Shown here: one piece after another, positions 10,783 to 13,023 of the stretch | Layout of the letters: the number at the start of each line of letters is the position of its first letter | How positions within the stretch are numbered: position 1 is the stretch's first letter | NCBI GenBank assembly: GCA_021846285.1 | Contig: JAJZCB010000023.1 | Span: 1-44,787, forward strand | Length of the DNA stretch: 44,787 nucleotides | Direction of reading: 5' to 3' | Origin: Bacillota bacterium | Lineage (GTDB): Bacteria; Bacillota; Bacilli; Alicyclobacillales; SLC66 | Position numbers and translations under genes: made by a program | The notes under the pieces: model-generated | Seen by the model: only the letters and a program-made list of their open reading frames with translations | Database searches by the model: none | Told to the model about the DNA's origin: nothing

Positions 10783-11337
10783 ATGAAAGACATGATCACG
10801 GGTGCGGATAAAAAACAGTTCATCAAGTGGTTTCTCGAACACTACGAACTGAAGAATCCGGAGGCGGAGTGGTTGCTTCAGTACCTCTACTCCAGCGAAC
10901 AATTGTTGGCAAAAGTGCACTTCACCGAGCACTTTCGCAGTTCGCCGAAGGCGCTGCTCATGTCAACCACCTGCGTTCAGATGACGGCCTTCAAGTTTTA
11001 CAAGAACAAGCGCGTCACTTCTGACGTCGAAAAAGCGTTTTTAGATGTGCACAGCCACCCTGAGGAAGACATCTATGTCACTCTGTACTTTAACGGACGC
11101 AATACCTGCTCCCGCTACCTGGCGGTTCTCGAAGAGGTCGAAGAGCCGACGCCAACGGTTACGGGCACTGAGGCGCTCATCGCGTTGCAGGCCGAACTCG
11201 TCCTTGATCAGATTGAACGCGAATGGCGGCGCGAACGGTATGATCGGGAGATTGACGCCGCTCTAGTCAACGGCGACCGGGCCGCTTTTTTGCGTCTCGC
11301 GGCCGAATACGCCAAGTTTGTGGACGCGCGACAATGA
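10783..11337 (+). CDS. ypiB: UPF0302 family protein YpiB
   Basis: A 184-residue cytosolic protein. The N-terminal two thirds (KKQFIKWFLEHYELKNPEAE, WLLQYLYSSEQLLAKVHF, FKFYKNKRVTSDVEKAFLD) is the UPF0302 domain. The C-terminal helix (RYDREIDAALVNGDRAAFLRL) is an IDEAL-type motif. Function is not established, to my knowledge. In B. subtilis ypiB follows the trp-tyrA-aroE-ypiA genes, so its place here is conserved, although aroE, ypiA and the downstream qcrABC are missing. GGAGGGG precedes the ATG. Confidence 0.9.
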   Translation: MKDMITGADKKQFIKWFLEHYELKNPEAEWLLQYLYSSEQLLAKVHFTEHFRSSPKALLMSTTCVQMTAFKFYKNKRVTSDVEKAFLDVHSHPEEDIYVTLYFNGRNTCSRYLAVLEEVEEPTPTVTGTEALIALQAELVLDQIEREWRRERYDREIDAALVNGDRAAFLRLAAEYAKFVDARQ

Positions 11338-11356
11338 AATTGTCACGATTCTGGCG

Positions 11357-11385
11357 TTGCAACAATGATGTAAATGAGGTAATAT
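11357..11385 (+). promoter_or_regulatory. Promoter of the riboswitch transcript
   Basis: TTGCAA, a 17-base spacer and TAATAT. The start would fall near 11392, just before a perfect 12-base palindrome (GCGGCGCGCCGC, 11395-11406). Confidence 0.65.
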
Positions 11386-11414
11386 AACCTTTAAGCGGCG
11401 CGCCGCCTAATTTT

Positions 11415-11580
11415 ATAGTACACGCTCAATTCCGATTCTCGGAAGCGGGGGAACCAAGCAATTGGGGTGAATTCGGTGAACAACCGATAGGGGAACTCTC
11501 AACCCGAACCCGTCAGCTAACCTCGTCAGCGGAAAGAGGGGTGAACGGTTATGTCGATAACCTTCTCCGTCCAGTTCGCG
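11415..11580 (+). promoter_or_regulatory. ydaO/yuaA-class c-di-AMP riboswitch
   Basis: The conserved blocks of the ydaO aptamer appear in order: CGCTCAATTCC, GCGGGGGAACCAAG (11445-), TTGGGGTGAATTCGG, ATAGGGGAACTCTC, and the hallmark CCGAACCCGTCAGCTAACC with CGTCAGCGG (11504-11532), then GAGGGGTGAACGG and a GGTTAT/ATAACC hairpin. In this class c-di-AMP binding usually favours termination, and the terminator directly follows. The controlled gene is the 161-residue protein at 11650. Confidence 0.92.
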
Positions 11581-11583
11581 CTT

Positions 11584-11618
11584 CCGTGACCTATATGATC
11601 ACGGTTTTCTGTTTTTTT
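11584..11618 (+). terminator. Riboswitch expression-platform terminator
   Basis: CCGTGA/TCACGG stem with a nine-base loop, followed by TTTTCTGTTTTTTT. It sits between the aptamer and the coding region, so it should be conditional. Confidence 0.8.
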
Positions 11619-11649
11619 CAGACTATAACGCGAAAAAGGGGAGACAGAC

Positions 11650-12135
11650 ATGACTTTGCAAGTTGAGATTGGCGAAGGAATCAAGCACGGGATTGCCATG
11701 GAAAACACATCTTCAGAAACGTGCATCTGTTCGGTCGTCACGCACGAAGTAACGATGCACTGCAATGGGTTGACCAGTGATCTGGAGCGCATTGAGAGCA
11801 TTCCGGCCATTGCGCGACGCGTGGTCACAGGTGTCTATGAGAGTCACGTTCCGTTTCACTCGTTTGCCATCGCAGAGCTGACTCGTGGGATTTTGCACGG
11901 ACTTGTCTGTGTGGGGTTAGACGTATCGTATGTAACCCGTCCTGCCACCAAAGGCATTCGTGAGGGCATCTCGCTGCTCGACGAGTATTCGCCGGAGGCC
12001 GAACAGGCGATCCGTGAAGGCGTGCGTCAGGCCCTGGAGGATCTGGGCATGAAACGTCTGGAGGAAGACCACTCGCTGGACCTGCCCGGTTTTTTCCTCA
12101 ACCAGACAGTCATGTTCGGTGAGGCCGTGTACTAA
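11650..12135 (+). CDS. Unrecognised 161-residue protein under c-di-AMP riboswitch control
   Basis: I do not recognise this family. It is a soluble, acidic protein (161 residues) with no signal peptide and no membrane segment. Visible features are a Cys-containing N-terminal part (TCICSVVTHEVTMHC, residues about 24-38), a middle helix (IARRVVTGVYESHVPFHSFAIAEL), a Cys/Gly stretch HGLVCVGLDV, and a charged C-terminal helix (AEQAIREGVRQALEDLGM). AAGGGGAG lies seven bases before the ATG, a strong translation signal. It is alone between the riboswitch and the terminator at 12231, a single-gene regulon. Usual targets of this riboswitch class are potassium and osmolyte transporters or cell-wall hydrolases, and this protein looks like neither. 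Confidence 0.85.
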   Translation: MTLQVEIGEGIKHGIAMENTSSETCICSVVTHEVTMHCNGLTSDLERIESIPAIARRVVTGVYESHVPFHSFAIAELTRGILHGLVCVGLDVSYVTRPATKGIREGISLLDEYSPEAEQAIREGVRQALEDLGMKRLEEDHSLDLPGFFLNQTVMFGEAVY

Positions 12136-12230
12136 GGGCGCTATAGGGGGGGCCCGCCTCTCACGGCCCAAGCAATATCCCGTTTACCTGTTTTCCGCCA
12201 GTGACAACTGTGTTCGCTCCGTACATGGCC

Positions 12231-12266
12231 AGAAACCGCCGATCCTGAAGGAAAGGCGGTTTCTTT
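12231..12266 (+). terminator. Intrinsic terminator after the riboswitch gene
   Basis: AGAAACCGCC and GGCGGTTTCT give a perfect ten-base-pair stem with a 14-base loop, then TT. It ends the single-gene unit before ypjA. Confidence 0.65.
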
Positions 12267-12315
12267 GCGCATGAAACCACCTGGCTGCGCGCATACTGCG
12301 AACCGAGGTGACCCG

Positions 12316-13023
12316 ATGGAACAACGGTGGGCGACAGTCATAAACATGGTGAAAAAGCGGAAGGTGTTGTACATCATACTCGGGGTCAACATCGTTGGCG
12401 TCGTGTTCGGATTCGTTTGGTACGAGGGCCAGTTGGCGAGAACACCTTGGTACCTCCGACCATTTGAGCCTGACAGTCCATTGTCGGCACTCTTTTTCGC
12501 CATCGCCCTGACTGGATTTCTCTGGCCACCTCGCCATGCGTATGTGCGACGCATGGTTCCCCTTATAGCAGCGGTGGCCGTCACCTGGTTGCCAAAATAC
12601 GGACTGTGGTGTGTCTTTGTTCTCTTGTGGGAGTGGACGCGACTGCACTCGCTGCCGCTTGCGACGTGGGTCCTGATCGGCTCCCATCTGGGGATGGCGA
12701 TGGAAGCTGTGTTAGTAACCCGTATGGTTCCGCTGTTGCGATTTTCGCGGGAACATCTGGCGGCGGCTGCTGTCGCCCTGTTGCTGAACGACTATGCGGA
12801 CTATGTGTACCGCGTATTCCCGTATCTTCCTTACAGCGACATGTTGCCCTTTATGACCGTCTTCACTCCACTTCTGTCCGTGGCCGTCCTTGCCGCGTGG
12901 TGGCGCGTGACCCCATCGATCCTCGATCACAGTTCCGCCAGTGGCGATGATTGTTTCCAAAACGAGTCAGAAGCAGCACGCCAACGCAAGGCCTGCGTCT
13001 CAGCGGCTGAACCCTTCCCCTAA
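12316..13023 (+). CDS. ypjA: DUF1405 membrane protein YpjA
   Basis: A 235-residue polytopic membrane protein of the DUF1405 family. It has about six hydrophobic segments, starting with LYIILGVNIVGVVFGFVWY, and family-like stretches such as WYLRPFEPDSPLSALFF, LPKYGLWC and LNDYADYVYRVFPYLPY. The function is unknown. ATG 12316 is chosen because GAGGTG lies six bases upstream; the frame opens earlier, inside the terminator. Its 3' end overlaps the 3' end of the opposite-strand YitT gene by 24 bases. In B. subtilis ypjA is in the same neighbourhood, just upstream of ypjC and dapB. Confidence 0.85.
   Translation: MEQRWATVINMVKKRKVLYIILGVNIVGVVFGFVWYEGQLARTPWYLRPFEPDSPLSALFFAIALTGFLWPPRHAYVRRMVPLIAAVAVTWLPKYGLWCVFVLLWEWTRLHSLPLATWVLIGSHLGMAMEAVLVTRMVPLLRFSREHLAAAAVALLLNDYADYVYRVFPYLPYSDMLPFMTVFTPLLSVAVLAAWWRVTPSILDHSSASGDDCFQNESEAARQRKACVSAAEPFP

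Follow-up and report, generated by a model that had tools for sequence, protein, structure and literature searches.

A conserved c-di-AMP riboswitch upstream of a single gene for an unnamed, predicted helical-repeat protein family in Bacilli

The targets of ydaO riboswitches named in the literature that we searched are transporters and wall enzymes. An earlier note on a 44,787-nt stretch of DNA from a member of the Bacillota (here called the window) proposed that a near-canonical ydaO aptamer drives only one gene there, coding for a 161-residue soluble protein that could not be placed in any family. This locus raises the question of whether the switch actually serves this gene and, if so, what a small soluble protein might do under the control of c-di-AMP.

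Aptamer, expression platform and transcription unit

A covariance-model search of the window gave a single Rfam match, the c-di-AMP (ydaO/yuaA) riboswitch aptamer RF00379 at positions 11413-11545 of the plus strand, with a score of 104.2 bits compared to a gathering cut-off of 38 bits and an E-value of 7.4e-24. The match covered model positions 1-134 and was thus complete, which at the level of sequence confirmed a real and well-formed aptamer, as the earlier note had proposed. In the covariance-model alignment the 5′ strand of P1, CGCU at 11423-11426, pairs with AGCG at 11528-11531.

The expression platform sits between the aptamer and the start codon and comprises an intrinsic terminator at 11584-11618 (plus strand; fold of −10.7 kcal/mol, z −2.2) and a competing antiterminator. 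The terminator stem is formed by CCGUGA (11584-11589) and UCACGG (11599-11604) and is followed by a T-rich tract (11605-11618). Duplex prediction for the window and its relatives, together with the sequence, placed the antiterminator at 11529-11587 of the same strand, with predicted pairings of GCGGAA (11529-11534) with UUCCGU (11582-11587) and of GUGAAC (11541-11546) with GUUCGC (11574-11579) and with a small hairpin at 11547-11562, downstream of the aptamer, enclosed between them. As the predicted antiterminator consumes both the 3′ strand of P1 and the 5′ arm of the terminator and excludes both, a P1 helix stabilized by the ligand should favor the terminator, i.e., the arrangement should act as an OFF switch. 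In most relatives from the family of the window, a CCGUGAC/GUCACGG terminator is kept at equal distance; the second family of the order mostly has another GC-rich hairpin with a T run at that place. At three homologous loci (L044, L046, and L063) the switch is present without a clear T-tract terminator, which indicates that the expression platform varies and that control may differ there.

The earlier note had credited the unit with its own promoter and terminator. The terminator was found, but the promoter in the window is only weak: the candidate sigma-70 promoter TTGCAA-17-TAATAT at 11357-11385 (plus strand), read by eye, matches at 8 of 12 positions and is below the threshold of 9/12 used in the promoter scan, in which the only overlapping 9/12 site was located at 11340-11369. 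Several relatives have good sigma-70 promoters 40 to 55 nt 5′ of the aptamer, for example TTGACG-18-TATAAT or TTGCCA-17-TATAAT. The open reading frame of the 161-residue protein (11650-12135, plus strand) is preceded by a Shine-Dalgarno-like GGGGAG, and the view that the switch drives a single gene was supported by a strong hairpin at 12231-12264 (plus strand; arms AGAAACCGCC/GGCGGUUUCU) that closes the unit. With a fold of −23 kcal/mol (z −4.9) that was equaled by none of 200 shuffles, this hairpin is a likely terminator, with only a short T run after the stem, and the unit is therefore probably monocistronic. A ReoY-like gene upstream of the switch ends at 11337, and the next gene on the same strand (12265-13023), which codes for a DUF1405/LhaT-like membrane protein, lies beyond the 3′ hairpin. 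The NCBIfam LhaT model scored this membrane protein with 126.6 bits, well under the cut-off of 255.

Conservation of the switch-gene pair

Whole-genome searches identified 30 homologous loci in 29 genomes from four families, namely that of the window, another one of its order (the second family), and two others of the class. A ydaO switch is located directly upstream of the gene at 26 of these 30 loci: at all 14 in the family of the window, at 9 of 13 in the second family, and at all 3 in the other two families. In the family of the window, a whole-genome protein search found the protein in 14 of 18 genomes, that of the window included, and two of the four genomes without it are at most 65% complete. 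A profile search found it in 13 genomes of the second family and at three loci in the two further families, where one genome carries two copies. The four homologs without a switch come from two genera (three genomes of one genus and genome G040), and their upstream regions gave no weak riboswitch match either.

Genomes with the pair carry about 2 to 20 ydaO switches each, so that the probability of a random gene lying behind one of them is below about 1%, and the observed pairing is far beyond chance. Between close relatives dN/dS of the gene was 0.04 to 0.12, which shows that the open reading frame is a real, conserved coding gene. Gene order is shared only within most of the family of the window, where the gene mostly lies between reoY- and lhaT-like genes; outside this family the neighboring genes are unrelated and the switch-gene pair alone is common to the loci. 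We considered the neighborhood as a clue to function, but as the neighbors are unrelated outside the family of the window, no function follows from it. In a comparison of 108 aptamers, the nearest aptamer was another family-associated one for 21 of the 24 aptamers associated with the protein family, suggesting that switch and gene were mostly inherited together; identities were modest and the tree poorly resolved, so that this comparison serves as supporting evidence only. Taken at the sequence level, control of the 161-residue protein gene by the c-di-AMP switch is well supported. In genome G056 (L021:1-142) a 6S RNA gene is located upstream of the switch-gene pair.

The protein was present in 17 of 399 genomes of a class sample. 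To look beyond the class, a phylum-wide sample of 398 genomes was searched, and the protein was found in that of the window alone, in a loose search that distant members could escape. The nearest named relatives are metagenome-assembled Bacillota. An origin from a mobile element or phage was considered as well, but plasmids, phages and viral contigs gave no match. A search for divergent paralogs behind some 80 further ydaO switches sampled from these genomes found none.

The protein and its predicted fold

The 161-residue protein is acidic (pI 4.9), has no transmembrane segment and no apparent signal peptide, and belongs to no Pfam or NCBIfam family. When all members were scanned against Pfam, NCBIfam, and PHROG, only isolated, single-member matches at chance level were obtained, and a search of PDB sequences with the family profile gave an unrelated best hit with an E-value of 0.47. 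Pfam and NCBIfam models of the known ydaO target families (potassium and osmolyte transporters, wall hydrolases) matched neither the protein nor its homologs. The earlier note had named two outcomes as speaking against its reading, a match to a transporter-regulator or wall-enzyme family and the lack of the riboswitch in all close relatives. Neither these families nor any other were matched, and the switch was kept at most loci in four bacterial families; these results support placing the protein in the c-di-AMP regulon as a new member. No description of the family was found in the literature searched, and it may be listed as "hypothetical" in the supplements of Nelson 2013 or Block 2010. The riboswitch class is known, whereas the target family is unnamed and new for this riboswitch.

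Across wide alignments, two residues, Arg79 and Gly80, are invariant; His83, Asp91, Gly124, and Asp131 are nearly or largely so. The protein of the window does contain cysteine, as had been pointed out, but the Cys residues are missing from distant homologs, and the hint that they are important is not supported. A HutP-like antiterminator, suggested by a His/TRG motif, was absent from the Pfam, PDB-sequence, and fold matches.

AlphaFold gave all-alpha models with stacked hairpins for both the protein of the window (six helices, pLDDT 82) and a second-family homolog (seven helices, pLDDT 91.6), and the protein is accordingly predicted to be an alpha-solenoid of helical hairpins. Among solved structures, helical repeats designed de novo came closest, with Z-scores of 12 to 15. 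One of these, DHR4 (5cwb), has similarly stacked helical hairpins and gave Z 11.7 with the first model and Z 14.9 with the second, the latter with an rmsd of 3.1 over 161 residues. W2/MIF4G-type domains of translation factors followed with Z-scores of 6 to 8, below the level that indicates kinship for helical repeats. They include the HEAT-like domains of eIF2B-epsilon (1paq; Z 7.9 and rmsd 3.6 over 132 residues with the second model) and of the eIF5 C-terminus (6knd). In the designed repeats and in these natural domains, as in the models of the 161-residue protein, helical hairpins are stacked along almost the full length of the chain. As helical solenoids match each other readily, the scores for the designed repeats and the W2/MIF4G domains reflect a common arrangement and not kinship; there is no sequence relation to either, with identities of 2 to 12 percent, and their Foldseek E-values were 0.01 at best. 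Foldseek gave no match with an E-value below 0.001 for either model, and among viral structures no fold match had an E-value below 0.1.

Regulation and possible role in the c-di-AMP response

The reading that we favor, and consider probable, is that of a transcriptional OFF riboswitch for one gene, through which low c-di-AMP would release a cytosolic helical-repeat adaptor. At high c-di-AMP, P1 (11423-11426/11528-11531) would be stabilized and the antiterminator, which shares the 3′ strand of P1, would be blocked, so that transcription would end at the terminator at 11584-11618. When c-di-AMP drops, the antiterminator would form and the 161-residue protein would be made, which may then act as a protein-binding adaptor or regulator in the turgor, potassium, and wall response. 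For this organism, the OFF sign is what we infer from the predicted exclusive structures. An OFF switch of this kind has been demonstrated experimentally in Bacillus thuringiensis: c-di-AMP promotes termination upstream of kdpFABC, and its level falls under potassium limitation in this species (PMC6488665). The kdpFABC-type switch likewise combines a complete aptamer with an intrinsic terminator before the start codon and mutually exclusive P1 and antiterminator, the latter a prediction in our case. Such systems target a transporter operon or a wall hydrolase, whereas the target here is a single soluble, probably helical protein.

A soluble family that mostly occurs alone behind a ydaO switch, with changing neighbors, probably has a function in c-di-AMP physiology. 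The type of helical fold and the absence of catalytic features make a protein-binding adaptor or regulator the most likely role for the modeled protein. Chance adjacency of switch and gene, or a switch that serves something else with the open reading frame being incidental, might be suspected from the one downstream gene, the unrecognised protein, and the weak promoter in the organism of the window, but such an explanation is extremely improbable, as it is contradicted by the conservation of the pair at 26 of 30 loci despite changing neighbors and by the dN/dS of 0.04 to 0.12.

The main rival to the adaptor reading is a feedback element, i.e., a protein made at low c-di-AMP that binds c-di-AMP, or binds and modulates a diadenylate cyclase or phosphodiesterase. 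Such a function would agree with a c-di-AMP control that is strongly conserved without any common operon partner, and a site could be formed by Arg79-Gly80, which are invariant, together with His83 and Asp91, which are largely conserved. We nevertheless regard it as unlikely, as no Pfam or NCBIfam match linked the protein to c-di-AMP receptors or cyclases that are already known, and it occurs in only 17 of the 399 class-sample genomes, whereas diadenylate cyclases were matched in 11 of 14 control genomes. Still less likely is a role in osmolyte metabolism, as an enzyme or a binder of small molecules, in place of an adaptor: another switch of the same genome does precede a KamA-like radical-SAM protein, but the modeled protein is a small all-alpha solenoid, wide alignments show just two or three invariant residues, and neither a catalytic family match nor a common metabolic neighbor was found, which argues against such a role. 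Returning to the adaptor, we tentatively suggest, as one possibility, that these small cytosolic helical-repeat proteins, a family without a name, serve as a dedicated c-di-AMP effector in part of the Bacilli; a riboswitch inherited together with the gene would tie their expression to the second messenger, and they would bind and regulate a component of the potassium, turgor, or wall machinery. The protein represents a reliable, uncharacterised part of the response to c-di-AMP, a salt-and-pressure signal, and is small enough for direct testing.

The genome of the window encodes two diadenylate cyclase (DAC) domains, with E-values of 1.8e-44 and 1.4e-26. Its four other ydaO switches precede genes for LysM-3D, NlpC/P60, YceG-like, and KamA-like radical-SAM proteins, the first three of which are wall proteins; these members of the regulon share the riboswitch class with the 161-residue protein gene, but their proteins are not homologous to it. 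Switch targets in related genomes include wall hydrolases, osmolyte ABC transporters, potassium transporters, and amino acid permeases, and less expected ones are MreB, Usp, and ribosomal protein L19. The assumption that known targets are transporters or wall hydrolases thus holds roughly, with L19, MreB, Usp, and the KamA-like protein as additions.

Two more small unrecognised proteins recur immediately behind ydaO switches, each in two genomes: one of 130 residues (L161 and L163) and one of about 50 to 75 residues (L118 and L121), with no Pfam match for those of L163 and L121. KamA-like radical-SAM genes, whose products could make beta-lysine, an osmolyte precursor, were found behind such switches at L002:305-1384 in the genome of the window and at L139 and L146. 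A ydaO switch also precedes the ribosomal protein L19 gene, rplS, an unexpected target, at L101, L107, and L131 (genomes G057, G045, and G056), and its identity was confirmed with Pfam for L101 and L131. Finally, genes for MreB/Mbl-type actins follow a ydaO switch at L095, L147, L158, and L162 (genomes G147, G216, G006, and G013) in three families, with the MreB/Mbl identity confirmed with Pfam for L095 and L158.
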